Origin: an uncultured Pseudomonadota bacterium
Lineage (GTDB): Bacteria > Pseudomonadota > Gammaproteobacteria > Burkholderiales > Eutrophovitaceae
Reading direction: 5' to 3'
Length of the DNA stretch: 23,075 bases
NCBI GenBank assembly: GCA_913057845.1
Contig: CAJXPC010000001.1
Span: forward strand, 1 to 23,075
The position numbers and the translations under genes were made by a program. Shown piece after piece: positions 2,698 through 22,904 of this stretch (within the stretch, counting starts at the first letter, position 1; each line of letters starts with the position of its first letter). The notes under the pieces were generated by a model. That model saw nothing but the letters and a program-made list of their open reading frames with translations, made no database searches and had not been told where the DNA came from.

Positions 2698-4027
2698 CTT
2701 TGTGTTCGGTGATCGCTCCGATCACCTTAGGTAACTGCAAATACATCGTGAGGGTTCGATAGAAAAAATGACTGAGTAGCGCGATCCATAGACCGAGATT
2801 TCCCAGGTCCTCCAGACTTTTCCAAGTGATGAAAAATAGCAGTGTTGAAACAAGCATGCTATTTCTCATTAAGGCGGTCGCCGTTGCACCAATAAAAATC
2901 CCATCGAGCTGAAAACACCAAACCCCGATAAATGGTGTGAGCGCAGCAAAAATCACATACTCCTTGGCTGTCTCACGTATAGAGTTGTCGACAGTAATGA
3001 AATCAATGATATCAGGCCCATAAACCAGCAAAGATATAGAGATCAAGGTTGCAATGCCACCCGCCCACATTGTGGTTAACTTAGCGGCATCAGAAAAATA
3101 ACGTCGAGAATTTTTGCCGACCGATTCACCAATAAACTTCTCAGTGGCAAAGGCTATTCCGTCTAAAAAATACGCGGAAACGGTCATGAAATGAAGCAGT
3201 ACCGCGTTCGCTGCAAGTACGGTGTCTCCGAAAGCCGCGCTGCTTGCAGTAAACCAGGTGAATACAACGATTAAAGCCAGAGATCGGACCAGAATGTCGG
3301 CGTTAACCGATAGGTTTTTGATCATTTTTTGCTTGGCTAAAATCCTTTTAATGTCCCATGCTCCGGCAAGCCTGTTTTGAAGCATCAATACGATAACTAT
3401 GCCTGCTCCAGCCGCGCCATATTCTGAGAGCAACGTGCCGAGAGCGACTCCTTTTACCCCCATGTTTAGGCCGAGCACAAAAAGAATATCCAACAACATA
3501 TTGCTCACGTTGAGAAGTAGTTGTAACGCCAAGGCATGTCGTGCTTTCCCAACAGCAATAAGCCAGCCTATTAGTGCATAATTGATTAGTGTGGCAGGAG
3601 CTGACCAAATCCGAATGTCGAAGTATTCGTTTGCTAGTAGTTCTACGCGGGGGCTGCCATGTATCAAATAAAATGATAATTCACTTATAGGATGTTGTAG
3701 TGAGATTAGTGCGAGTCCGATAATGACTGCCAGCAGAGCGGAACGTCCGAGTGTTGCGCGAATTTCCTCTTGATCATTTGCTCCCACGGCTTGAGATGTT
3801 AGGCCAGCTGTCCCCATCCTCAGAAATCCAAACGCCCAATAAATGAAGGTGAATATCATTGACGCGATGGCAACTGAGCCAATCAGCGCTGGATCGGGGA
3901 CCCGGCCAATGATTATGGTATCAACGACTCCAATGAGGGGCGTTGATACGTTGGCAATCATGATGGGGATCGCGATTTTAAATAGATCTTTATGGCCGAT
4001 AGACCCGAGCCCTTTTCCGAGCGTCAT
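2684..4027 (-). CDS. MATE family efflux transporter (DinF-like)
   Basis: A polytopic inner-membrane protein of 447 residues with about 12 hydrophobic segments in two homologous halves. It matches the MatE/DinF family: an early IAIPIMIANVSTPL helix, VDTIIIGR, and FLRMGTAGLTSQAVGA in the first half, with LDGIAFATEKFIGE and FQLDGIFIGAT in the second. MATE proteins export cationic compounds or metabolites using Na+ or H+. ATG is at 4025-4027 with no clear Shine-Dalgarno sequence. It is the last gene of the minus-strand hcm cluster, 40 bp after the gamma-CA-like gene, so cotranscription is plausible. The stop overlaps the end of the convergent symporter by 14 bp. Cargo is unknown. Confidence 0.9.
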   Translation of the reverse strand: MTLGKGLGSIGHKDLFKIAIPIMIANVSTPLIGVVDTIIIGRVPDPALIGSVAIASMIFTFIYWAFGFLRMGTAGLTSQAVGANDQEEIRATLGRSALLAVIIGLALISLQHPISELSFYLIHGSPRVELLANEYFDIRIWSAPATLINYALIGWLIAVGKARHALALQLLLNVSNMLLDILFVLGLNMGVKGVALGTLLSEYGAAGAGIVIVLMLQNRLAGAWDIKRILAKQKMIKNLSVNADILVRSLALIVVFTWFTASSAAFGDTVLAANAVLLHFMTVSAYFLDGIAFATEKFIGESVGKNSRRYFSDAAKLTTMWAGGIATLISISLLVYGPDIIDFITVDNSIRETAKEYVIFAALTPFIGVWCFQLDGIFIGATATALMRNSMLVSTLLFFITWKSLEDLGNLGLWIALLSHFFYRTLTMYLQLPKVIGAITEHKVSRD

Positions 4028-4067
4028 TTTATTATTCGCGAACCGTGGTTAGGGGCGCTGTGAGCGT

Positions 4068-5111
4068 CTACGAATTTTTCTTATAGTTCTTGCTGTATTG
4101 CTTGTAGACATCAACGCCAACCGAGAAAAGTTTTGTGTTTTCCTCCGAAAGAGGTCGAGATTCTTTCGCTGGACTTCCCGACCAAATCATTCCTTCGGTG
4201 ACTACAGTATTAGGAGCGGTAACTGCGCCTGCAGCTACGACGCCCCCATTTTGAACGATGGTTCCTTTTCCTATTGTTGAGCCCATGCCAATGATGCAAG
4301 TGTCGCCAATGTCACAAGCGTTTAGTTGAACGTTATGTCCTATGGTCACGCGTGCCCCAATTTTTAAATGCTCGCCGGAGTCTAGAGTAATTCGTGAGTT
4401 GTCTTGAATGTTGCTCGCCGCTCCTAATGAGACTGAAGCATCTTGTGCGGCGATTTCAACGCCAAACCAGATGCTTGACTCTGCGGCCATTTCTAACTGA
4501 CCTACGACGTTTGCCGTGGGGGCAATATAAGAGTCAAATCTAGAATTTTCCGCGACGCCCTGTCCTGGCTCATGATTAATTTTGGCTACTGGTTTTTTGG
4601 AAAGGACCCATTCTGCACCGGCTCCGTGTTTTCTAGATTTAACGATGCCTCGAAGTTCTTCAAGCTCGGCGGCTTCAATTTTTCGTACCGGTTTGGCGGG
4701 GACTCCATGGTATAGCCAGCCGGGCTCAAGCTGTTTGCCGGGGGGAACAACGCTATCGCTGCAGACTACAGACCCTTTGCCCACGCTCGCGTTATCCATG
4801 ACTACAGCATGTTCGCCAAGCAGGCAATCCTCTGCAATTGTACATCCGTGTACGAGACCAAACCTACCCACGGTTGCGCGATTGCCCAACGTCGCGCCAT
4901 AGGCGCTATCAGCAATATGAACTGTTGCATACTCGCCAAACCAACATTCCGAGCCAACGTTAATTGTTTCTCCATCGGCTCGGAGAGTGACAAGATCTTC
5001 GAAGTGACAGTGCTCACCTATCGTAGTTCGACCGATAATGGAGACCCAACGTTTGCTTGAGCAGTTCTTGGAGATCTTAGGATGGAAATCCAGGTAAGGG
5101 ATGATGTTCAT
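4068..5111 (-). CDS. Tandem gamma-carbonic-anhydrase-like (left-handed beta-helix) protein
   Basis: A 347-residue protein made of two complete hexapeptide-repeat beta-helix domains (about 1-150 and 190-325), each resembling single-domain gamma-CA/YrdA/PaaY proteins of about 180 residues, joined by a charged linker. Each half ends in the family's post-helix motif (YHGVPAKPVRKI; WSGSPAKESRPL). The three zinc-ligand positions read His65, Arg83, His88 in half one and Thr242, His259, Asn264 in half two, so neither half alone has a complete site. Half one keeps RxD (44-46); half two keeps NIQD (234-237). ATG 5111 is preferred over TTG 5120 because AGG lies 9 nt upstream and the MNIIPY start is typical of the family. 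It lies 62 bp downstream of hcmA. It could be a carbonic anhydrase, an acyltransferase-like protein or a scaffold. Confidence 0.85.
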   Translation of the reverse strand: MNIIPYLDFHPKISKNCSSKRWVSIIGRTTIGEHCHFEDLVTLRADGETINVGSECWFGEYATVHIADSAYGATLGNRATVGRFGLVHGCTIAEDCLLGEHAVVMDNASVGKGSVVCSDSVVPPGKQLEPGWLYHGVPAKPVRKIEAAELEELRGIVKSRKHGAGAEWVLSKKPVAKINHEPGQGVAENSRFDSYIAPTANVVGQLEMAAESSIWFGVEIAAQDASVSLGAASNIQDNSRITLDSGEHLKIGARVTIGHNVQLNACDIGDTCIIGMGSTIGKGTIVQNGGVVAAGAVTAPNTVVTEGMIWSGSPAKESRPLSEENTKLFSVGVDVYKQYSKNYKKNS

Positions 5112-5173
5112 GTGTGGCAACCTACTCTCTTTTGTGATTTATAACAATTGCAGTTGAGCAGCAAACCACCGAC

Positions 5174-6862
5174 TTAAAACACTGGATTTTCCCGGTACGT
5201 ACCCCAGATCGTTCTGAGTTTTTCAACGATATCGCCCATTGTTGCGCCGGCGTCAACCAGCTCAATAGTGATTGGCATGATATTTTTTGTCTCGTCTTTC
5301 GCAACCTCGAGTAGTTTGTTGAGGAGGCTTTCTATTTGGTCGTTGTCACGTGTGGCGCGCACATTTTGTAGGCGACTGATTTGTCTGTCTGCAGTAGTCG
5401 GGTCATGAGGATGGGTTTTAATATCTGCTTTTTCATCTTCCTCTACGTATTTATTGACCCCGATAACTGGCTTCTGCCCATCTTGTTTCTTGAGGGCTGT
5501 CTCATAGGCGAAGTCGGCAATGTGTTTTTGAAACCAACCCTCTTCGATTAGTTTGATGGTGCCGCCCTTTTCTTTAACTTCTTCCAAGATTTCAAAAATT
5601 TTGGTTTCATATTGTGTAGTGAGGTTCTCTAGGAAGTATGAGCCACCCAATGGGTCAATGACATTTGCAACATTGGTTTCATCAGCGATCACTTGTTGCG
5701 TTCGAAGCGCAATCTTCATCGCTTCTTCAGTGGGAATCGCAAACGCTTCATCCATGCCATTTGTATGTAGACTTTGAGCGCCTCCAAGGACGGCTGCCAA
5801 GGCTTGCACTGTCGTTCGCATGATGTTTACTTTGTACTGTGGTTTGGTCAGAGAGGCTGCCGCTGTTTGACAGTGAAAGCGTAGGCGCATCGACTCAGCT
5901 TTTTTGGCACCAAATTGATTTTTCATGATCTTAGCCCAGACTCTACGGGCAGCACGAAACTTAGCAATTTCTTCAAAGAAATCTGCCTGACAGACGAAGA
6001 AAAATGCGAGTCTCGGTGCAAATAGGTCGACATCCATGCCGGTTTTAACAACCTCTTCGACGTAGGTTGTTGCGTTAGCCATCGTGAACGCTATTTCGTG
6101 CAGCGGAGAGGAGCCGGCTTCGCTGATGTGGTACCCCGAAATGTTTATTGGGTTGTACCGTTTCATATTTTCTGCGCAGTATGTGATGCAGTCCCTAACG
6201 ATTCGCACGGATGGTGAAATGGGGTAGATATATTCTTTTTGTGCTACATATTCTTTTAAAATATCCGCTTGAACCGTCCCGGAGAGCTTGTTGAGATCGT
6301 TTCCGCGCCGTTTTGCTAGCGCGATATACATGGCGAGTAGGATCCATGCGGTTGGGTTGATTGTCATGGAAACAGAAATGTTTTCTAAATCTATTTCATC
6401 AAATAAAGCCTCCATATCAGCCAGTGTGTCGATGGCCACTCCTTCTCGGCCCACCTCTCCATCGCTCATCGGATGGTCTGAGTCATAACCCATCAGTGTG
6501 GGCATGTCGAAGTCCGTTGATAGGCCCGTTTGACCTTGCGAAATCAGATATTTGAAACGATTATTGGTGTCTTCTCCTGTGCCAAATCCTGCGATCTGCC
6601 GCATGGTCCAGTATCGGCTTCTATACATCGTTGGGTAGGGGCCCCTAGTGAAGGGATATTGACCAGGAAGGCCAATGTCATCAATGGGTATGTCTTTCGT
6701 GTCGAGGGCGGTATATGTTCTTTTTACCGGAAAGCCACCTAGGGTATAAAATTCATCTTCGCGCTCAGGTTGTTTATTAAGAAAAGCGCTGACTTCAGTG
6801 TCTTCCCATAGTTCTAACTGTTTAGCAAGTTGGGTTGGATCCATTTTGTTAAGTGTGCTCAT
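5174..6862 (-). CDS. hcmA: 2-hydroxyisobutyryl-CoA mutase, large subunit
   Basis: The 562-residue catalytic subunit of a split B12-dependent acyl-CoA mutase: a substrate-binding TIM barrel with no cobalamin domain. It would catalyse 2-hydroxyisobutyryl-CoA to 3-hydroxybutyryl-CoA in the cytosol. The residues that set substrate choice in this family are visible. Ile90 (WTMRQIAGF) replaces Tyr89 of methylmalonyl-CoA mutase and Phe of isobutyryl-CoA mutase. Asp117 (LSTDFD) replaces Ala. Gln208 (VAQKEY) replaces the carboxylate-binding Arg207. His245 (SGYHISEAG) is kept. The numbering coincides with that of HcmA of Aquincola tertiaricarbonis. AGGA lies 7 nt before the ATG. The gene follows the MeaB-type GTPase by 12 bp and hcmB lies just beyond, giving the mutase/chaperone/B12-subunit set. 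Automatic pipelines would probably label it methylmalonyl-CoA mutase. A related branched-acyl mutase remains possible. Confidence 0.9.
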   Translation of the reverse strand: MSTLNKMDPTQLAKQLELWEDTEVSAFLNKQPEREDEFYTLGGFPVKRTYTALDTKDIPIDDIGLPGQYPFTRGPYPTMYRSRYWTMRQIAGFGTGEDTNNRFKYLISQGQTGLSTDFDMPTLMGYDSDHPMSDGEVGREGVAIDTLADMEALFDEIDLENISVSMTINPTAWILLAMYIALAKRRGNDLNKLSGTVQADILKEYVAQKEYIYPISPSVRIVRDCITYCAENMKRYNPINISGYHISEAGSSPLHEIAFTMANATTYVEEVVKTGMDVDLFAPRLAFFFVCQADFFEEIAKFRAARRVWAKIMKNQFGAKKAESMRLRFHCQTAAASLTKPQYKVNIMRTTVQALAAVLGGAQSLHTNGMDEAFAIPTEEAMKIALRTQQVIADETNVANVIDPLGGSYFLENLTTQYETKIFEILEEVKEKGGTIKLIEEGWFQKHIADFAYETALKKQDGQKPVIGVNKYVEEDEKADIKTHPHDPTTADRQISRLQNVRATRDNDQIESLLNKLLEVAKDETKNIMPITIELVDAGATMGDIVEKLRTIWGTYRENPVF

Positions 6863-6874
6863 GAATTTTCCTAA

Positions 6875-7846
6875 TTAGAAAGCAATTTTTTTCAGAAGGT
6901 CATTAGATGCTGTGAAAGGGTCTAGTTCTCGCCTAGCAATTTGCTCCACAACATCTTGAATTCTTTTGTTGGTTGATTTGTAAAACTGACTGCGCAATAA
7001 ATCTTCAGCAGTTTTAAACGTTCGATACTCTGCGATGTTTCGTAAACGTTCTTCTCCTAATTCGGTGGTGCGATGGACGTCTCTATGGCGATCCAAGGTG
7101 GCTATTAAGGTGTCTATTCCTTCGCCGGTTTCAGAGCTCGTCCCCACAACGGGAACTTGCCAAAGTGGTTTGCCTCCACGATCTTTGATTGCTATGTTCA
7201 CGCCCATGGCGAGCATGATTTTTAGGTCTGTAATAGTTCTATTTGAGTCTGACCGATCACATTTGCTCACAACATGAATGTCGGCTATCTCCAGAATGCC
7301 TGCTTTGATCGCCTGCACGTCGTCACCGAGTCCGGGTGCTGAAACTACCAGTGTCGAATGCGAGGCTTTCGCGATTTCAACCTCATCTTGGCCGACCCCA
7401 ACGGTTTCAATGATAATGACGTCGAAGCCTACTGTGTCTAAAATGTCTACAGCAGTTAAGGCCGAACGTGCGAGGCCTCCCGTAGAGCCCCTTGTGGCCA
7501 TGCTGCGAATGAACACCCCTTCGTCCATTACGAGATTGGTCATTCTGATTCTGTCACCAAGGATTGCCCCACCTGAAAATGGGCTGGAGGGATCGATTGC
7601 GATGACGCCCACCCTGCGACCGTCCTTTCGGATGGTTTCAACTAACTTGCTGACGAGTGTTGATTTTCCGCTGCCGGGAACTCCCGTTAGTCCTACGATG
7701 TGCGCACGACCCGCTGCTCTGTAGATTGCCCCGAGAGAGCTAAGTGTTTCGTCATCATTCGATTCGGCGCGTGACATCAGTCGGCTGGCCGCACGCAGAT
7801 CTCCTTTTTTAAGTCGCGCAACTAAATCGGCAGATGAAATGGGCAT
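6875..7846 (-). CDS. meaH: MeaB/ArgK-type G3E GTPase, mutase chaperone
   Basis: A 323-residue G-protein that gates cobalamin loading and protects or reactivates B12 mutases. The P-loop GVPGSGKS is at residues 55-62 after LTG, followed by IAIDPSSPFSGGAILGDRIRM (switch region), MATRGSTGG, an ETVGVGQDEVE Walker-B/switch segment and VSKCDRSD at the guanine-specificity (NKxD-type) position. Length and motif order match MeaB/ArgK. It lies between hcmB (21 bp upstream) and hcmA (12 bp downstream), so its client is almost certainly HcmAB. The name meaH follows the homologous gene in described 2-hydroxyisobutyryl-CoA mutase clusters; meaB would be the generic name. The start at ATG 7846 has no strong Shine-Dalgarno sequence, which suggests translational coupling to hcmB. 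Confidence 0.92.
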   Translation of the reverse strand: MPISSADLVARLKKGDLRAASRLMSRAESNDDETLSSLGAIYRAAGRAHIVGLTGVPGSGKSTLVSKLVETIRKDGRRVGVIAIDPSSPFSGGAILGDRIRMTNLVMDEGVFIRSMATRGSTGGLARSALTAVDILDTVGFDVIIIETVGVGQDEVEIAKASHSTLVVSAPGLGDDVQAIKAGILEIADIHVVSKCDRSDSNRTITDLKIMLAMGVNIAIKDRGGKPLWQVPVVGTSSETGEGIDTLIATLDRHRDVHRTTELGEERLRNIAEYRTFKTAEDLLRSQFYKSTNKRIQDVVEQIARRELDPFTASNDLLKKIAF

Positions 7847-7867
7847 TGGTGTGATTGATCGATATTG

Positions 7868-8275
7868 TTAACGAGGACCGCGTTCTTGCACTAGTTTTTC
7901 GAGGCGCGCAACGATTTCTTTAGGGGTTGTGTCTTGTAAAAGCAGTTCTTTGACGCCCATGTCCCTAAGGGGAATCACATCCTCGTCAGGCACAACGCCG
8001 CCCACGACAACAATTGTGTCTTCGGCATCCTTGTCTTTCAGTAGTCGCATGATCTTGGGGCAGATAGTCATGTGGGCGCCTGATAGCAGGCTCACGCCAA
8101 GAATATCAACGTCCTCTTGTACGGCTGCGTTCACTACCTCTTCAGGTGTTCGGTGTAAGCCGGTGTATATGACGTCCATGCCGGCATCTCGTAGGGTTCT
8201 GGCGACCACTTTGACGCCTCGGTCATGCCCGTCTAGCCCGACTTTCGCTAATAAAACTCGAATTGGTAAGCTCAT
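7868..8275 (-). CDS. hcmB: 2-hydroxyisobutyryl-CoA mutase, cobalamin-binding small subunit
   Basis: A 135-residue stand-alone B12-binding domain. It carries the base-off/His-on signature: DGHDRG near residues 15-20, where the His replaces dimethylbenzimidazole as the lower cobalt ligand, then SLLSGAH (SxL) near 62-68 and a VVVGGVVP glycine motif near 88-95. The length is that expected of a separate HcmB/IcmB subunit. Translation starts at ATG 8275 with AGGA 8 nt upstream. It is the first gene of the minus-strand run hcmB-meaH-hcmA-gammaCA-MATE and is preceded by a 280-bp non-coding region that should hold the promoter. It would pair with HcmA to form the active mutase. It is unlikely to serve IcmF, which has its own B12 domain. 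Confidence 0.9.
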   Translation of the reverse strand: MSLPIRVLLAKVGLDGHDRGVKVVARTLRDAGMDVIYTGLHRTPEEVVNAAVQEDVDILGVSLLSGAHMTICPKIMRLLKDKDAEDTIVVVGGVVPDEDVIPLRDMGVKELLLQDTTPKEIVARLEKLVQERGPR

Positions 8276-8555
8276 GAGTGGTTCCTAACCCAACATTAAA
8301 TAGATTAAAGTAAGCGCACACTATCATCATTGATCATTCATTATAATGATATGATGTCAACCTTGTGTACACGGCCGGCTTTGTGATTATCAAATAAATT
8401 ATTGTATACGGAATGCAATAATAATGCTTAGTAAGCCCGAAGTCTAAAAATCCAGCTCAAACTGTTGCTATTAATTTGATCTGTAATTCTCCCTGAAGTT
8501 TATGGATTCAGTCGGCAGAAGCGTAGGCCAACCAGCTTCTGCCGAAATATTGGTG
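8276..8555. other. Non-coding region between icmF and hcmB, with nested inverted repeat
   Basis: A 280-bp A/T-rich gap expected to carry the hcm promoter (minus strand) and the 3' end of icmF. At 8325-8356 there is a nested inverted repeat: outer CATCAT/ATGATG and inner ATCATT/AATGAT around CATTAT. On the minus strand TTGACA (8355-8360) and TATAAT (8340-8345) are both perfect boxes, but only 9 bp separate them, so they cannot form one normal sigma70 promoter. GTGTACAC (8365-8372) is an 8-bp palindrome. An icmF-proximal hairpin is listed separately. No ORF or RNA gene is recognisable. Confidence 0.55.
8512..8545 (-). terminator. Strong hairpin downstream of icmF
   Basis: A perfect 11-bp inverted repeat, TCGGCAGAAGC (8512-8522) and GCTTCTGCCGA (8535-8545), with a 12-nt loop, starts 10 nt after the icmF stop codon on the minus strand. 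The stem is GC-rich, but the sequence after it in the direction of transcription (CTGAATCC...) is not a U-tract. It is therefore either a weak or factor-assisted terminator or a 3'-end stabilising hairpin that marks the end of the ilvB-IPFOR-icmF transcript. Confidence 0.55.
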
Positions 8556-11500
8556 CTACATAGACCTTCGATATTTCCCGCCCACCTCAAATAAAGCATG
8601 GCTGATTTGTCCTAGCGAACATACGTGAACGGCATCCATGAGGACTTCGAATACGTTTTGATTTTGAATGACGGCAGTTTGCAGCCGCTCCAGCATCATC
8701 GGGGATTCGCCGCTGTGTTGCTCTTGGAAAGTTTGGAGTCGGTTGAGTTGAGACTGCTTCTCTTCTTCGGAGGAGCGAATTAAATCGACCGTTTCCGGTG
8801 TTGTGTCCCCGTTCGGATTTAGGAATGTATTAACGCCGATTAGCGGATAGCTGCCATCATGTTTTTTGTGCTCATAATACATTGACTCTTCCTGGATCTT
8901 CCCTCTTTGGTATCCTAGTTCCATGGCCCCTAAAACGCCCCCGCGCTCGGAAATTGATTCGAATTCCTTTAGCACGGATTCTTCCACCAAGTCGGTGAGT
9001 TCTTCAATAATAAAGCTGCCTTGGCTGGAGTTTTCATTTTTCGCCAGGCCCCATTCACGATTGATGATTAACTGTATTGCCATGGCGCGACGCACACTCT
9101 CTTCTGTAGGTGTGGTGATGGCCTCATCATAGGCATTTGTGTGCAGAGAGTTGGCATTATCATAAGTCGCGATTAGGGCTTGTAGTGTGGTTCTGATGTC
9201 ATTGAAGTCAATTTCTTGCGCGTGCAGCGATCGACCGGATGTTTGGCAGTGGTATTTGAGTTTTTGAGATCTCTCGTTTGCTCCGTACCGGTCTCGCATC
9301 GCGACAGCCCATATCCTTCGAGCCACTCTACCGATTACGGTGTATTCGGGATCCATTCCATTACTGAAAAAGAAACTCAAATTTGGTGCGAAATCATCAA
9401 TTTTCATGCCGCGCGCTAGATAAGCTTCAACGAATGAAAATCCGTTACTTAGCGTAAATGCAAGTTGTGAAAGCGGATTGGCTCCAGCTTCGGCAATATG
9501 GTAGCCGGAGATGGAGACCGAGTAGAAGTTCCTGACATTTTGGTCTATGAAGTACTGCTGTACGTCACCCATGACTTTTAAACTGAACTCAGTAGAAAAA
9601 ATGCATGTGTTTTGTCCCTGATCTTCTTTGAGAATGTCAGCTTGCACTGTTCCTCTCACGGAGTTTAGGGTTTGTTTTTTGATACTATCTTTTTCGGCTA
9701 CAGAGGGTTCTCGGCCTTCTTTTTCCTTGAACTTGTCGTACTGTTGATCGATCGCAGTGTTCATAAACATGGCGAGAATCGTTGGTGCTGGCCCATTGAT
9801 CGTCATGGAAACGCTGTTCGTTGGCGCACAGAGATCAAATCCCGAGTAGAGAACTTTCATGTCCTCAAGTGTGGCAATCGATACGCCTGAGTTACCAATT
9901 TTCCCGTATATGTCGGGTCTTAGGTCTGGATCAAAGCCGTATAACGTAACGGAGTCGAAAGCTGTTGATAGTCGTTTTGCTGGCATATCTTTAGATAAAA
10001 GATGAAAGCGTTTGTTTGTTCTAAACGCATCCCCTTCGCCCGCAAACATTCTTGTTGGGTCTTCATTTTCTCTTTTAAAAGGAAATGCGCCTCCGGTGAA
10101 TGGGAAATATCCGGGGACGTTCTCGAGCATTAGCCATTTAAGAATTTCACCATGGTCCTCAAATTTAGGTAATGAGACCCGAGGTATCAGACTCCCCGAT
10201 AAGGTCTGATATTTAAGTTCGGTACGAATCTCTTGTTCTCGTATTGTTACAACGTGGTGCTCTCCCGAGTATGCACTTTGGAGTTTTGGCCAATTAGAGA
10301 GGAGGTTTTTGCTATCTGGATGAAGTTGACGGTCTCGCTCTGAGGCCAAACGTTGAATGTGCGACACATCCTCATCTGTCTCTTCCTTCACTATGGCAGC
10401 CACAGATTGGAGTTGTTGACGTTCGCGTGCTATGAGTGATTCGCTGACCACGCGCTTTTTGTATGAACGTACGGTATCTGAAATTTCCGCAAGGTACCGC
10501 GCTCTATCAGGCGGAATAATACTGGTAATGTTTGTCGAGCATTTACCTTCGACGGTAGGTAGTTTTCTGCCTACTCGCACCAGGCCATGGTCAACCAGAG
10601 CATCGGCGACAGTGTGGTAGAGCGCGGTAACCCCGCCATCATTGAATCGCGATGCGGTCGTTCCGAAAACGGGCATTGCACTCGGACTTTGGTTGAATTT
10701 CTGTTGATTGCGTTGATATTGTTTTGATACGTCCCGAAGTGCGTCTTCAGCGCCACGGCGATCAAATTTGTTGATCGCAACGAGATCAGCAAAGTCAAGC
10801 ATGTCTATCTTCTCAAGTTGGCTGGGTGCGCCGTATTCTGGAGTCATGACGTATAGGGATAAATCTACAAAAGGCACAATTGCGGCATCACCTTGGCCAA
10901 TGCCTGAGGTTTCGATGATGATTAAATCAAATCCGCCACATTTACATGCCGCTATAGCTCCAGGCAGGCAATCAGCTACCTCGCTCCCCCCGTTTCGGGT
11001 GGCGAGTGAGCGCATATATATTTTCACGCCGTCGAGCGCATTCATTCGAATGCGATCACCCAATAAAGCGCCGCCGGTTTTACGTCTAGATGGATCCACT
11101 GCTATGACTGCGATGTTGAGATTGTCCCCCTCATCAAGCCTAAACCGTCGAATTAGTTCATCGGTCAAAGAGGATTTCCCTGCCCCTCCAGTGCCAGTTA
11201 TTCCTAAGACAGGAATCTTGCCCGCCAAACTCTCCGCGTGGTCCAACACGCTTTGATAGAAATCGCCATCTATAGATTTATCTTCGATAGCTGAGATCAC
11301 TCTCGCAATCTCACCGTGAGCAGATTTGGAGATTGAGTCAAGGGATCCTACTAAAGCGGGTGATTTCGCCTCCCGTGCTCGTTGGATCATGTCGTCGATC
11401 ATTCCCTGAAGACCCATGGTGGCACCATCTTCGGGGGAGTAAATTTTCGATACGCCGTATTCGTGTAGCTCTTTAATTTCAGATGGAACGATGACGCCAC

Positions 11501-11822
11501 CCCCCCCGCCAAACACCTGAATATGTCCGGCGCCTCTTTCGCGGAGCAGGTCGATCATATATTTGAAATATTCGATATGACCGCCTTGATAAGAGCTAAC
11601 AGCGATGCCTTTCGCATCCTCTTGAACCGCAGCTGTAACGATTTCGTCAACAGAGCGATTGTGTCCGAGGTGAACAACTTCCGTACCGCTGCCTTGCAGC
11701 ATTCGTCTTATGATATTAATAGAGGCATCATGGCCATCGAAAAGGCTGGCAGCAGTCACAAATCTTACTTTTGCCCCAATGCTGGTGGGCTTGGTAAGCG
11801 GGTCGTCTTTTAAGTTTGTCAT
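8556..11822 (-). CDS. icmF: Fused isobutyryl-CoA mutase IcmF (B12 domain, G-protein, mutase)
   Basis: A 1088-residue single-chain B12 enzyme interconverting isobutyryl-CoA and n-butyryl-CoA. Order of domains: cobalamin-binding (about 15-155, lower-ligand His31 in DGHD, SSYQGGH, GGGGGV); MeaB-like GTPase (about 200-420, P-loop GTGGAGKSS 210-218, ETSGIGQ 304-310, NKFD 351-354); linker (about 420-540); mutase barrel (about 545-1088). The specificity residues are Phe593 (RMFAGEG) and Gln737 (DQGQNTC), the pair used by IcmF, not the Tyr/Arg of methylmalonyl-CoA mutase. SGYHIAEAG carries the active-site His. The length is normal for IcmF. It lies 114 bp after the 2-oxoacid ferredoxin oxidoreductase, which could supply isobutyryl-CoA. 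Translation starts at ATG 11822 with only a weak GAG upstream. Some IcmF proteins also accept isovaleryl- or pivalyl-CoA. Confidence 0.95.
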
Positions 11823-18806: not shown

Positions 18807-19469
18807 GTGCCGAATATGAATAGATTGAAGCCACAGCCTACGCTGGTCGATCAGGTCTATGAGGCGATTCTTTCTGATATATCTGAGGGAAAGTTTGATG
18901 AGAAAAATCGACTCAAGCAGGAGGAAATAGCAGAATCATTAGGGGTTTCGCGCCAGCCGGTTCAGCAGGCGCTGTTGTTACTTCGTAGTGATGGGTTGGT
19001 GCGTGACGCACCGGGTCGCGGTTTGGTTGTGTCACCTCTAGAATTCGATTTTGTGAGGGATTTGTATGAGGTGCGCGCCGCAATTGACAAGTTAGCTACT
19101 GGGAAAGCAGCGGAGAGAGGGGCGAAATTAGCCTCAGAAGACGGGGAAGACTACCTAGAGGCTGGTCGTCGTGCGCTCAGCAGTGGCTCAATTGCTGAGC
19201 TGATTGCCGCTGATGTTAATTTCCATTTTTTTATTTACGGACTCGCAGGCAATCCATTGATAGCCGAAACCAGTCGCCCTCATTGGAACTTTTTGCGGCG
19301 TGTTATGGGGCAGGTGCTTCTTAAGGGGGAGCCCCCGGTCGAGATTTGGAACCAGCACGCTGACATACTTGGAGCGGTGATCGAAGGCAATGTAGGTGAG
19401 GCAGAGCGATTAGCTGGTGATCACATCGTTCAGGCGCTAATTGCGCTGGAGCAAAAGCTTAAAGCTTAG
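18807..19469 (+). CDS. GntR family regulator, FCD (FadR) subfamily
   Basis: A 220-residue regulator. The N-terminal winged helix (about 10-75) has LVDQVYEAILSDISEGKF, LKQEEIAESLGVSRQPVQQALLLL and GLVRDAPGRGLVV. The C-terminal all-helical FCD domain (about 85-215) has DLYEVRAAIDKLA, an AADVNFHFFIYGLAGN helix and a terminal DHIVQALIALE helix with the His/Asp residues that usually bind metal and a carboxylate effector. The annotated GTG 18807 and the ATG at 18816 are both possible; neither has a Shine-Dalgarno sequence and the leader is short. It is the first gene of a three-gene run with the acyl-CoA ligase (39 bp) and ThDP lyase (24 bp), so it probably represses that operon in response to the acid or its CoA ester. 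Confidence 0.9.
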   Translation: MPNMNRLKPQPTLVDQVYEAILSDISEGKFDEKNRLKQEEIAESLGVSRQPVQQALLLLRSDGLVRDAPGRGLVVSPLEFDFVRDLYEVRAAIDKLATGKAAERGAKLASEDGEDYLEAGRRALSSGSIAELIAADVNFHFFIYGLAGNPLIAETSRPHWNFLRRVMGQVLLKGEPPVEIWNQHADILGAVIEGNVGEAERLAGDHIVQALIALEQKLKA

Positions 19470-19508
19470 CCTCAAGTTCTGTGTCTTTAGAAGAATGTTA
19501 GATAAGTT

Positions 19509-21158
19509 ATGAATATTTCAGAGTATAAAACCTTGTACCACACCCTGTGTGACACTGTTGCCTCTTACCCGGATAGGGCCGCTTATTGCGTTCCGCCAAT
19601 GAAGGGGAGGAGCTACCACCCTGACGGTTGGGAAATTACATGGGGACAGGTTTTAGAACGGGTAGAAGCTAAAAAAAATGTTTATGCGAAAGCTGGGGTA
19701 GGGCATGGTCATCGCGTTGCGATTTTGTTTGAGCAAAGGCCGGAGTTTTTCTTTCATTATTACGCGCTCAACGCGCTTGGTGCCGGTATCGTCCCGATCA
19801 ACCCTGACTATCGCATTGAAGAAATTAAGTATGTAATTGAGCACTCTGAAGCGACTTTAGCTGTGTGTGTTGATGCCCGCTTGGCAGAGCTGGTGTCTAT
19901 AGCGAACTCGATCAGCAGCAATCTGGAAGTTGTATCGTTTGATTCATTTCCTGATGAATTGCCACTAATGCCTGCCGCGCCGCGCCATGATGAGCCGGAT
20001 GCTGACACGGAGGCGGCGCTTCTGTATACATCGGGGACAACTGGAAGGCCGAAGGGTTGTATCCTTACAAATGAATACTTTCACACTTTTGGTGAAAGTT
20101 ATTTTTATGCCGGGGGTCGACTTGGTTTCCGAGAAGAGGGGGAGCGGTTGTACAACCCTTTGCCTTTGCATCACGCCAATTGCTTGTCGATTTCAACGCC
20201 CGCAATGTTAATGAGTGGCGGTTGCTTAATTTTCCCCGACAGATTCCATGCAAGCACTTGGTGGAAAGATCTCGTTGCTACCAAAGCAACGGCTGTTCAG
20301 TTCCAGGGAATTATTCCTAACATTTTGCTGAAGTTGCCGGAGGAGCCCGAAGAGCGGCAACATCAAGTGCGCTTTGCGCTTTGCGCCGGTATCGAGCCCA
20401 GCCATCATGAGGTTTTTGAAAAGCGCTTCGGCTTTCCCGTTGTTGAAATGTGGGCCATGTCTGAAACTGGAAGAATTATTACGGATAACTTTGAGCCTCG
20501 CAAAATTCAAACACGCTCGTTTGGAAAAGAGAGTCAATGGGTTGAGGCGCGAGTCTTTGATGAAAACGATAATGAATTATCTCCTGGTAAACCGGGTGAG
20601 CTGGTGATTCGAAGTAATGGTGCTGAGCCGCGTCAAGGATTTTTTTCTGGTTATTTGAAAAATGAAGAGGCAACTGAGGAAGCTTGGAAGAGTGGTTGGT
20701 TCCATACGGGTGACGCGGTTATCCAGGATGAAGAGGGCTTCTTTTACTTTTTAGATCGTAAGAAAAATATCATCCGCCGATCAGGGGAGAATATCGCCGC
20801 AGCCGAGGTGGAGGCGTGTTTGACCGCTCATGAGCGTGTCAAGCAGGTAGCTGTCATCGCGGCCCCTGATGAGGTTCGCGAAGAAGAAGTTATGGCCTGC
20901 GTTGTAGCAAAGTTTCCCGAAGACGTTAATGGCACGGAGGGACAAGCTAAGTTTGCGAATGAATTGTTCGATTGGTGTTATGAGCGTATCGCTTACTTCA
21001 AGGCGCCAGGATGGGTATTATTTATAGATACTCTCCCTTTAGGGACTTCAGCAAAAGTTCAAAAGATTCATATTTTTCCGCCTGGAATAGATCCGCGACA
21101 GCAGGATGGATCCATTGATTTGAGGTCGCGTAAAAAACAAAAAATGCAAACCACTTAA
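19509..21158 (+). CDS. AMP-forming acyl-CoA synthetase (ANL superfamily)
   Basis: A 549-residue adenylate-forming ligase that activates a carboxylic acid with ATP and CoA. The P-loop YTSGTTGRPKG is at 173-183. MWAMSETGRI is the A5 adenine region, GWFHTGD the A7 Asp motif and DRKKNIIRRSGENI the A8 hinge. LPLGTSAKVQK near the C-terminus supplies the catalytic Lys of A10. It resembles CaiC/medium-chain or hydroxyacyl ligases in layout. It is followed by the 2-hydroxyacyl-CoA-lyase-like gene after 24 bp and preceded by gntR, so the substrate is most likely a 2-hydroxy acid; 2-hydroxyisobutyrate is the attractive candidate because it would also feed HcmAB. The start at ATG 19509 has only a weak A/G-rich upstream site. 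The substrate assignment is inference. Confidence 0.88.
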   Translation: MNISEYKTLYHTLCDTVASYPDRAAYCVPPMKGRSYHPDGWEITWGQVLERVEAKKNVYAKAGVGHGHRVAILFEQRPEFFFHYYALNALGAGIVPINPDYRIEEIKYVIEHSEATLAVCVDARLAELVSIANSISSNLEVVSFDSFPDELPLMPAAPRHDEPDADTEAALLYTSGTTGRPKGCILTNEYFHTFGESYFYAGGRLGFREEGERLYNPLPLHHANCLSISTPAMLMSGGCLIFPDRFHASTWWKDLVATKATAVQFQGIIPNILLKLPEEPEERQHQVRFALCAGIEPSHHEVFEKRFGFPVVEMWAMSETGRIITDNFEPRKIQTRSFGKESQWVEARVFDENDNELSPGKPGELVIRSNGAEPRQGFFSGYLKNEEATEEAWKSGWFHTGDAVIQDEEGFFYFLDRKKNIIRRSGENIAAAEVEACLTAHERVKQVAVIAAPDEVREEEVMACVVAKFPEDVNGTEGQAKFANELFDWCYERIAYFKAPGWVLFIDTLPLGTSAKVQKIHIFPPGIDPRQQDGSIDLRSRKKQKMQTT

Positions 21159-21182
21159 GCCCACTAAATTTTTGGAAAAAAC

Positions 21183-22904
21183 ATGTCATTGATGCCATTG
21201 AACGAAAACATGAGTGCTGGCGTGATTGCCCGATTTTTAAAATCTCAAGGGGTTGATCGAATTTTTTCCTTATGTGGTGGACACATCATGCCCATTTGGA
21301 TGCGTGCTGATGCGGAGGGAATACAGATTATAGATGTGCGTGATGAGCGAGCTGCAATTTATATGGCGCATGCGCACAGCGAGTTAACGGGGAAGCTTGG
21401 CGTCGCATTAGTCACGGCGGGGCCAGGGGTGACTAATGCGATGACTGGAATTGCTAATGCGCATGTTGCCCGGGCATCTATTCTTGTTCTGTCGGGACTT
21501 CCACCTAGGGCACAAGAAAACCGTGGCGCACTGCAAGATATCGTGCACACGGATCTTCTTAAGTCGATCACTCGTTATGCGCGAACGGTTCGACAATCTA
21601 GTTTGGTGTTACAAGAGCTCGACGAAGCGGTTTCTCGAGCCATGGGAGCTGGAGGGGAGCCTGGGCCGGTGTATCTAGATTTTCCAACGGATGTTCTCCG
21701 AGAAGAGGTGCCTAGAGCCATTCAGATGTTGGAGCACTTCAGACCCAAGATCATTCGGCCTTTACTTCCCCATGCGGATGATGTCGCAGAGGCGGTGAGA
21801 GTTTTATGGGGTGCTAAAAAACCGTTAGTAATTTCTGGGCGAGGAGCTCGTGGTGCCCAAAAAGAGTTATGTGAATTTTTAGATAAGCTTGGTGCGGTAT
21901 ATCTTGATACCGGCGAGAGTAAGGGTTTGGTGCCAGACAGCCACCCATCCGTTGTCGCGGCAATGCGGGGTAAGGTCATGGGCGATGCCGATGTTGTTGT
22001 GACTTTGGGTCGGCGCCTGGATTTCCAACTAGCGTATGGATCTCCGGCTGTTTTTGGTTCGGCTAAGTTCGTCCGAATAGGAGAAGTCCCGACCGAAGTG
22101 CGTGACAACAGACGTGGGGATGTGGAGATTCATGCAAATCCTGCTAAAACTTTGGAAGCCATTAACCAGTGCGTGGGGACGCGAATTTCTGCCGTGGATA
22201 AGGAGTGGGCAAAGTCACTTCGTTTAAAGCACGAGGAGCGAGCGCAACGGCTGGCTGAGTCGATGTTGACTGCGCCATCCGATGATCAGGGACGCATTCA
22301 TCCTAATAGAGTGCTTGCTGAGATGCAAAAGCAAATGGGTAAAGATTCAGTTGTTGTTGCAGATGGCGGTGATTTTCTTGCTTTTGCGCGTGTGGGTTTG
22401 AATGCGACTACGTACCTTGACCCTGGTTCGCTCGGGTGTATTGGAATTGGAACTGCATTTGGTATTGCCGCCAGCCTCGCTTGTCCTGGTAAAGATGTTG
22501 TGGTGGCGACTGGTGATGGGGCATTTGGGTTCAATGCAATGGAGATTGATACGGCCGTGCGCCACAAGGCACCCGTGCTTATTGTTGTGGCCAATAACGG
22601 AGCATGGCAAATCGAGGTTCATGATCAAACTGATACGCACGGTAAGGTTGTAGGGACTAAGCTACAGGTTTCAAATTATGCGCAGATGGCGCAAGCTTTT
22701 GGGATGTACGCGGAAAGAGTGACATCGGCAGACGATCTAGAGGGGGCGATTAAACGAGCGATGCAAAATAGGCCCGCGCTATTGGATGTTTTGGTGTCTC
22801 CTGAGGCGAAGTCCTCTGATGCAAAAACTGGCTTGGCTTGGGTGCCTGATTTGCAGGCTCTTGCCGCATGGGATGATGCGGAAAAAGCCTGGCGTCAGGA
22901 TTAG
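21183..22904 (+). CDS. ThDP-dependent lyase, 2-hydroxyacyl-CoA lyase-like (ILVBL/HACL2 type)
   Basis: A 573-residue ThDP enzyme with the three-domain AHAS/oxalyl-CoA decarboxylase fold. Catalytic Glu55 is in RDERAA. CGGHIMPI (31-38), TAGPGVTNAMTG (78-89), QENRGALQDI (111-120) and GPVYLDFPTDVL (161-172) match the ILVBL/HACL2 group. GDGAFGFNAMEIDTAV (444-459) and NNGAW (471-475) form the ThDP/Mg site. It lacks the AHAS-specific MGMVRQWQ segment seen in ilvB of this window, so an acetolactate synthase label would be misleading. HACL-type enzymes cleave 2-hydroxyacyl-CoA to formyl-CoA plus an aldehyde or ketone; a described actinobacterial relative splits 2-hydroxyisobutyryl-CoA to acetone and formyl-CoA. 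The preceding ligase gene fits this. Its stop overlaps the convergent glutaredoxin gene by 4 bp. Exact substrate unverified. Confidence 0.82.
   Translation: MSLMPLNENMSAGVIARFLKSQGVDRIFSLCGGHIMPIWMRADAEGIQIIDVRDERAAIYMAHAHSELTGKLGVALVTAGPGVTNAMTGIANAHVARASILVLSGLPPRAQENRGALQDIVHTDLLKSITRYARTVRQSSLVLQELDEAVSRAMGAGGEPGPVYLDFPTDVLREEVPRAIQMLEHFRPKIIRPLLPHADDVAEAVRVLWGAKKPLVISGRGARGAQKELCEFLDKLGAVYLDTGESKGLVPDSHPSVVAAMRGKVMGDADVVVTLGRRLDFQLAYGSPAVFGSAKFVRIGEVPTEVRDNRRGDVEIHANPAKTLEAINQCVGTRISAVDKEWAKSLRLKHEERAQRLAESMLTAPSDDQGRIHPNRVLAEMQKQMGKDSVVVADGGDFLAFARVGLNATTYLDPGSLGCIGIGTAFGIAASLACPGKDVVVATGDGAFGFNAMEIDTAVRHKAPVLIVVANNGAWQIEVHDQTDTHGKVVGTKLQVSNYAQMAQAFGMYAERVTSADDLEGAIKRAMQNRPALLDVLVSPEAKSSDAKTGLAWVPDLQALAAWDDAEKAWRQD

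Follow-up and report, generated by a model that had tools for sequence, protein, structure and literature searches.

The window, by which we mean the whole 23,075-nucleotide stretch analysed here, is an entire contig (CAJXPC010000001.1) of a 309-contig, 1.87-Mb assembly that is 86.8% complete. It carries a gene of 347 codons whose product consists of two domains resembling gamma-class carbonic anhydrases (gamma-CAs) and is called the tandem protein below. The gene is on the minus strand and runs from the ATG at 5111 to 4068. The plus-strand translation of 4068..5111 is full of stops, a single open reading frame (ORF) spans both halves, and Met1 is nearly invariant in an alignment of relatives (A2, see below). 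The gene and its halves are placed as follows:

4068..5111, minus strand: tandem gamma-CA-like gene, 347 amino acids, stop codon at 4068-4070.
4617..5111, minus strand: half one, residues 1-165, a beta-helix with a short C-terminal helix (147-159), delimited from AlphaFold secondary structure, PDB sequence matches and the tree.
4071..4556, minus strand: half two, residues 186-347, a beta-helix with a long C-terminal helix (323-345), delimited from AlphaFold, PDB sequence and structure matches and the tree.

The AlphaFold monomer models of two tandem proteins, that of the window and a relative, have predicted TM scores (pTM) of 0.93 and 0.94, with the halves packed confidently. A left-handed beta-helix with an antiparallel C-terminal helix was found in the AlphaFold models and in VIA alignments to gamma-CAs, the latter for both halves of the window protein and half two of the relative. 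The chain thus holds two gamma-CA-like beta-helices, as an earlier note on this DNA had proposed. The Pfam matches are hexapeptide-repeat and related beta-helix models. The best PDB sequence matches of half one are bacterial gamma-CA-like proteins and those of half two are mitochondrial gamma-CAs. Names given to tandem proteins in the sources include gamma carbonic anhydrase family protein, carbonic anhydrase/acetyltransferase-like protein, CaiE and hypothetical protein.

An excerpt of PMC4519908 states for M. thermophila Cam, in agreement with the earlier note, that one monomer supplies metal ligands 1 and 3 and its neighbour supplies ligand 2; that iron can escape on exposure to air is noted there too. 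In the tandem protein the corresponding residues are divided between the halves (counts refer to 360 tandem proteins, described below):

4974..4982, minus strand: Arg44-Ala45-Asp46, the RxD motif at corner T2 of half one; Arg44 and Asp46 in 360/360.
4917..4919, minus strand: His65, gamma-CA ligand 1 (HMMER alignment); 360/360.
4863..4865, minus strand: Arg83, at half one's ligand-2 position (lost ligand); Arg in 318/360, His in 6/360.
4848..4850, minus strand: His88, gamma-CA ligand 3 (HMMER alignment); 360/360.
4401..4412, minus strand: Asn234-Ile-Gln236-Asp237, the NIQD motif at corner T1 of half two; N in 347/360, Q in 360/360, D in 359/360.
4386..4388, minus strand: Thr242, at half two's ligand-1 position (lost ligand, from the column in the control alignment); His in 30/360.
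4335..4337, minus strand: His259, gamma-CA ligand 2 (HMMER alignment); 360/360.
4320..4322, minus strand: Asn264, at half two's ligand-3 position (lost ligand, from the column in the control alignment); His in 32/360.

In the HMMER alignments ligands 1, 2 and 3 of solved gamma-CAs fall on His65, Arg83 and His88 of half one, and ligand 2 falls on His259 of half two. Thr242 and Asn264 occupy His columns in an alignment with 41 single-domain gamma-CAs; Thr242 is opposite His in only one of the three HMMER alignments shown, the other two having gaps there. The triad is H-R-H in half one and T-H-N in half two, so neither half has the three His of a single domain. Checking of the codons from the ATG at 5111 confirmed the residue numbers of both triads that the earlier note had given, and its placing of ligands 1 and 3 with RxD in half one and of ligand 2 with NIQD in half two agrees with the alignments. 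The counterparts in Cam are His81 for His65, His122 for His88 and His117 for His259, with D61, N73, Q75 and D76 as second-sphere positions.

Three protein searches gave 443, 1386 and 754 matches. The best 120 of each, picked by overall score without regard to the ligands, were aligned and make up 360 distinct sequences with 30-100% identity to the window protein (median 39%, 194 below 40%); P0001 and P0002 are 100% matches to it. Alignment A1 comprised the window protein and 44 others, A2 the window protein and 117 of the 120 in the first list, and A6 one locus protein and 77 of the 120 in the third. None of the 360 proteins is gapped at the key positions of either half. Conservation of the split in homologues had been set beforehand as the test of the idea, and the split is conserved: R44, D46, H65 and H88 of half one and Q236, H259 and N260 of half two are invariant, the second-sphere residues being divided in the same way as the ligands. 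Position 234 is S in the 13 proteins where it is not N, and each of the eight metal-site and second-sphere residues is kept in 347-360 of the proteins. Ligands 1 and 3 of half one combined with ligand 2 of half two are complete in 360/360, while the reciprocal triad (ligands 1 and 3 of half two with ligand 2 of half one) is found in 0/360. In 341 proteins neither half has a full His triad. His at both lost positions of half two occurs in 13. Tandem loci fetched from genomes have the same three His in 6/6 and 6/6 cases, some of these loci being proteins already in the lists.

Two further positions can be mentioned. Asn260 (4332-4334), directly after ligand 2, is found in all 360 tandem proteins and in 9 of 41 single-domain controls, and from this comparison of sequences appears to be a mark specific to the tandem family. 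Arg83 (4863-4865) has a conservation above that of a decaying site, Arg being found in 318 proteins. The idea of a decaying gene was ruled out by the conservation of the site residues.

The 41 controls, all single-domain matches, were fetched as loci from among the best results in two of the genome sets described below, the 100 relatives and the Alphaproteobacteria sample, and are not a random draw. One of them, L035, is gapped at the His columns and was dropped from the His count, leaving 40 scorable controls. All three His are within one domain in 40/40. Of the second-sphere positions, R is found in 41/41, the residues at the D61, N73 and Q75 positions in 40/40 each and that at D76 in 39/40. 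The eight site residues therefore normally reside together in one domain, and the 360/360 split against 40/40 undivided controls makes the division more than chance. By our own arithmetic, which ignores linkage between residues, random assignment of the eight residues to two halves gives a clean division in 2 of 256 cases.

The beta-helix has three corners, here labelled T1, T2 and T3 from the strand spacing. In half two, the AlphaFold strands place 236-237 and 259 on turn T1, between faces 1 and 2, and 234 on the strand just before it, while 221, 223, 242 and 264 are on or at turn T2, between faces 2 and 3. By homology R44, D46, H65 and H88 are at corner T2 of half one; for half one the corner positions were carried over from half two with a constant offset, and a few may be off by one. 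On these models half one would retain the T2 half-site and half two the T1 half-site. Conservation over 247 rows was 2.74, 3.40 and 2.77 bits at T1, T2 and T3 of half one and 3.70, 2.48 and 2.59 bits in half two. With the site positions excluded and the 360 sequences weighted by similarity, the values were 2.67, 3.21 and 2.55 for half one and 3.44, 2.45 and 2.54 for half two, compared with 3.14, 2.95 and 2.63 for 40 single domains, also without site positions. There are thus two raised corners in a single domain and one in each tandem half.

An unrooted tree was built from 40 half ones, 40 half twos and 40 of the 41 controls. In it the half ones are on one side of a branch (support 100/100) and the half twos likewise on one side of another (100/99). 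This fits a two-domain form that arose once and has passed on the split ever since. Deviations in letter make-up were found for five rows of the tree, namely both halves of P0245 and P0251 and half two of P0012.

As the same division is kept by the relatives, the halves probably build one shared active site. The tandem protein is very probably a single-chain, pseudo-heteromeric gamma-class metalloenzyme with one composite metal site, most likely in cis. Two gamma-CA domains would have been joined once, each domain retaining one half-site. Half one would contribute the RxD corner with ligands 1 and 3, and half two the N-x-Q-D corner with ligand 2. Where the T2 corner of half one and the T1 corner of half two meet, most likely within the chain, there would be one complete metal site, a single metal being bound between the halves by His65, His88 and His259. 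The reciprocal interface, T2 of half two against T1 of half one, would have lost its site and been freed from conservation at the level of an interface, and Arg83 may close this dead corner. A hydroxide bound to the metal would then attack CO2 or a thioester. The earlier note's proposal that complementary halves form one site at their interface is supported by the conservation of the residues, a single complementary combination being found in 341/360 proteins; one limit is the 19/360 in which the third His is back. The chance that the reaction is CO2 hydration is put at about even. N-x-Q is kept, a motif of the Cam hydrogen-bond network according to an excerpt of PMC4519908, which places CO2 slightly ahead of a thioester, but the lead is weak.

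Several observations weigh against this reading. A full His triad in one half is found in 19/360 proteins, six times in half one and 13 times in half two (P0022, P0024, P0028, P0090, P0185 and P0253, and 13 of P0015-P0058). The Asn and Gln of the other corner are both absent from all six half ones; the Arg is absent from all 13 half twos, and the Asp is present in one. These proteins can be either reversions or old states. The third set (P0241-P0360) has R at 221 of half two in 45/120 and D at 223 in 36/120, and both are present in 17/360 proteins overall, so the division of the second sphere is incomplete in places. In the third set and in L087 and L088 the Arg and Asp of half two look like an intermediate state of the division. 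The dead corner T1 of half one is slightly more conserved than the outer corner (2.67 against 2.55 bits) and Trp57, which lies on it, is conserved in two of the three sets. Together with the retained Arg83 this suggests that the surface of the dead corner may still serve something. A coupling analysis between the halves (247 rows, effective number 66.5) gave top pairs with no readable pattern. The gamma-CA model NF050158 is the top NCBIfam match and covers two stretches of the window protein, but at 174.3 bits it is below the cut-off of 250, as are four tandem relatives (169.3, 167.7, 203.2 and 155.1). Finally, the contact of the two corners in space is something we infer, as are metal binding and the location in cis.

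The tandem gene is preceded, on the same strand, by genes for acyl-coenzyme A (acyl-CoA) mutases:

5174..6862, minus strand: hcmA, large subunit of the 2-hydroxyisobutyryl-CoA mutase type, directly upstream of the tandem gene with a gap of 62 bases; best PDB match 4r3u, 981.6 bits.
6875..7846, minus strand: MeaB-type G-protein chaperone; TIGR00750, 312.6 bits, cut-off 240.75.
7868..8275, minus strand: hcmB, B12-binding small subunit; TIGR00640, 149.5 bits, cut-off 57.45.
8556..11822, minus strand: icmF, fused isobutyryl-CoA mutase; NF045497, 1903.3 bits, cut-off 1500.

The match 4r3u, closest to HcmA, is a solved 2-hydroxyisobutyryl-CoA mutase. A scan of 3900-8700 for promoters and terminators gave values near the shuffled mean. 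Among 100 relatives searched, the tandem gene was found in 11, own genome included (E <= 1e-90), and hcmA orthologues in seven (E <= 1e-180), every one a carrier of the tandem gene. In seven of the 11 carriers hcmA is the immediate upstream neighbour on the same strand, and in the other four icmF is. These four are congeners (G001, G002, G004 and G006) with no hcmA match at E 1e-180, where the tandem gene comes directly after icmF, as though the intervening hcmB-meaB-hcmA block had dropped out. A sample of Alphaproteobacteria had the tandem gene in 8/385 genomes (E <= 1e-60), two of which, G687 and G764, have the order meaB-hcmA-tandem. A search of the phylum found it in 6/398 (E <= 1e-60), own genome included. 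No match to hcmA, hcmB, meaB or icmF was found in the fetched stretch of nine genomes, six from the Alphaproteobacteria sample and three others from the phylum search; five of the nine belong to a Methylobacterium-like group (g157, which includes these three and is so called from the names of near-identical proteins) and four to one family (f190). Their neighbouring genes include MoaE, an AI-2E transporter and an isocitrate/isopropylmalate-type dehydrogenase.

A general co-occurrence of the tandem gene with hcmA was rejected. In the Alphaproteobacteria sample, with these cut-offs and only the first few candidates scored per genome, hcmA was found in 7/385 genomes (E <= 1e-190), overlapping the eight tandem genomes in two (G687 and G764), which leaves five hcmA genomes without the tandem and six tandem genomes without hcmA. 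The place in a 2-hydroxyisobutyryl-CoA mutase cluster, which the earlier note had pointed out, is real in the sense that, in 13 of the 22 genomes whose neighbourhood was read, the tandem gene comes immediately after one for a B12-dependent acyl-CoA mutase, but does not hold for the other nine. Some lineages have a strong link to acyl-CoA mutases and others have none, and the tandem protein is therefore unlikely to depend on the mutase for its function.

The neighbourhood bears on the alternative that survives best, a credible though lesser possibility, in which the same composite site carries out a PaaY-like hydrolysis of acyl-CoA thioesters, freeing CoA from products of a mutase shunt or dead end. 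The gene comes right after hcmA (nine) or icmF (four), on the same strand, in the 13 genomes, and excerpts of PMC11110157 describe PaaY as a zinc-dependent thioesterase with gamma-CA architecture and its homologue TrlF as having both thioesterase and CA activity. The PaaY and CaiE models match the window protein, though under their cut-offs (TIGR02287 99.4 bits against 319.6, CaiE 80 against 305), and the nine genomes without mutase genes in the fetched stretch (five g157, four f190) speak against such a role. Structural or other roles take the rest after CO2 hydration and thioester hydrolysis.

A site in trans, with half one of one chain completed by half two of another, for example in three chains forming two three-domain rings, is rather unlikely. 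The canonical fold is a trimer (excerpt of PMC4519908), three tandem chains have the six domains sufficient for two rings, and the conserved Arg83 and Trp57 on the other corner of half one could serve a further contact. The monomer models, however, have the halves confidently packed in one chain, so that cis is favoured over trans, and T2 of half two is not above its outer corner (2.45 against 2.54 bits, site positions excluded). It is improbable that the protein is a non-catalytic, gamma-CA-like structural element or scaffold, a role that has been considered for the plant complex I domain. In excerpts of PMC7447434 plant CAL subunits without two ligands still assemble and no measurable activity is given for the plant domain, and no paper on the tandem family was found in the open-licence PMC literature; a pure scaffold, on the other hand, need not hold eight residues in 347-360 of 360 proteins at 30-100% identity. 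Separate homotypic trimers of each half (AAA and BBB), with the conserved His serving otherwise or sites complete only in some members, would agree with gamma-CAs being trimers (excerpt of PMC13261364) and with all three His in 6/360 half ones and 13/360 half twos, but are highly improbable, as a ligand is missing at each homotypic interface in 341/360 and each half has one raised corner, not two.

Returning to the single-chain enzyme with one composite site, an obligate two-domain gamma-CA with one interface and one site, standing outside the three-fold ring and with its other interfaces released from constraint, as conservation by corner suggests, is a tentative extension that falls somewhat short of an even chance. 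If true, the class of trimeric CAs would include a functional branch of monomers or dimers that arose once and has persisted in Alpha- and Betaproteobacteria.

Other carbonic anhydrases were also searched for. No second gamma-CA match was found at E 0.001 in the own assembly, which is 86.8% complete. The own genome gives no support to the idea that the tandem is the sole carbonic anhydrase, as two Pro_CA (beta) matches there exceed the cut-off. Among the genomes of the family, beta-CA matches were found in 10/17 and an alpha-CA match in 1/17. G002 and G003 have neither, the tandem being the only gamma-CA match listed, a weak hint in favour of that idea.

Elsewhere in the window, 18807-22904 contains a GntR-like regulator (assigned by eye), an acyl-CoA ligase and a 2-hydroxyacyl-CoA lyase (NF058623, 806.1 bits, cut-off 600). 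With the lyase and HcmAB on one contig there are possibly two routes for 2-hydroxyisobutyryl-CoA, cleavage and rearrangement. At the contig end, the bases of 11-44 look like a Nextera transposase adapter. ORF 17-478 begins inside this stretch and its N terminus is therefore probably an artefact.

Neither the fold nor the ligand positions are new, nor is the notion of a heteromer with one surviving site. A literature search of open-licence PMC papers yielded no single chain with complementary half-sites and no paper on tandem or divided gamma-CAs. The subunit that Gln75 or Arg59 comes from in Cam was not found in print. In a homotrimer each copy carries both sides of the shared site and the subunits therefore cannot specialise. 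A single-chain tandem can, and the outcome in this family is one side per half. The tandem also offers a system in which ligands can be mutated in one half at a time. Because 341/360 proteins lack a complete triad in either half, an annotation check made domain by domain would wrongly call them inactive.

Compared with known systems, single-domain gamma-CAs of the CamH/YrdA type have all the residues in each domain and three equal sites in the trimer, whereas the tandem has one half-site per half. PaaY, CaiE and TrlF share the gamma-CA architecture in acyl-CoA metabolism, but PaaY orthologues are homotrimers (excerpts of PMC11110157), and the window protein misses the PaaY and CaiE cut-offs. 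Among the structure matches listed, only 3c8v, a Desulfovibrio 'putative acetyltransferase' with two beta-helices, spans both halves, a single superposition aligning some 300 residues for each of the two models; it differs in having 15% identity and 461-464 residues. A literature search for its code gave one paper, which by title and abstract is on something else. That there is no other two-domain solved chain among the matches listed proves nothing. The plant and algal CA/CAL domain of mitochondrial complex I, to which the earlier note had compared the protein, is an apt parallel, being a heterotrimer of unequal partners with one surviving zinc site at one interface (excerpts of PMC7447434 and PMC7567890). 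The tandem would be its bacterial counterpart, the activity of the plant domain not having been measured according to the excerpt of PMC7447434. V. radiata CAL2 has Ala147 and Arg152 in place of the two lost His (PMC7447434, excerpt); Arg152 is a precedent for Arg at a lost ligand place, as in Arg83, though perhaps at a different ligand. As excerpted, the plant site is found between two CA subunits, two His having been lost from CAL and one from V. radiata CA1 as well. The plant CA and CAL are separate subunits attached to complex I, unlike the tandem halves, which are complementary within one chain.
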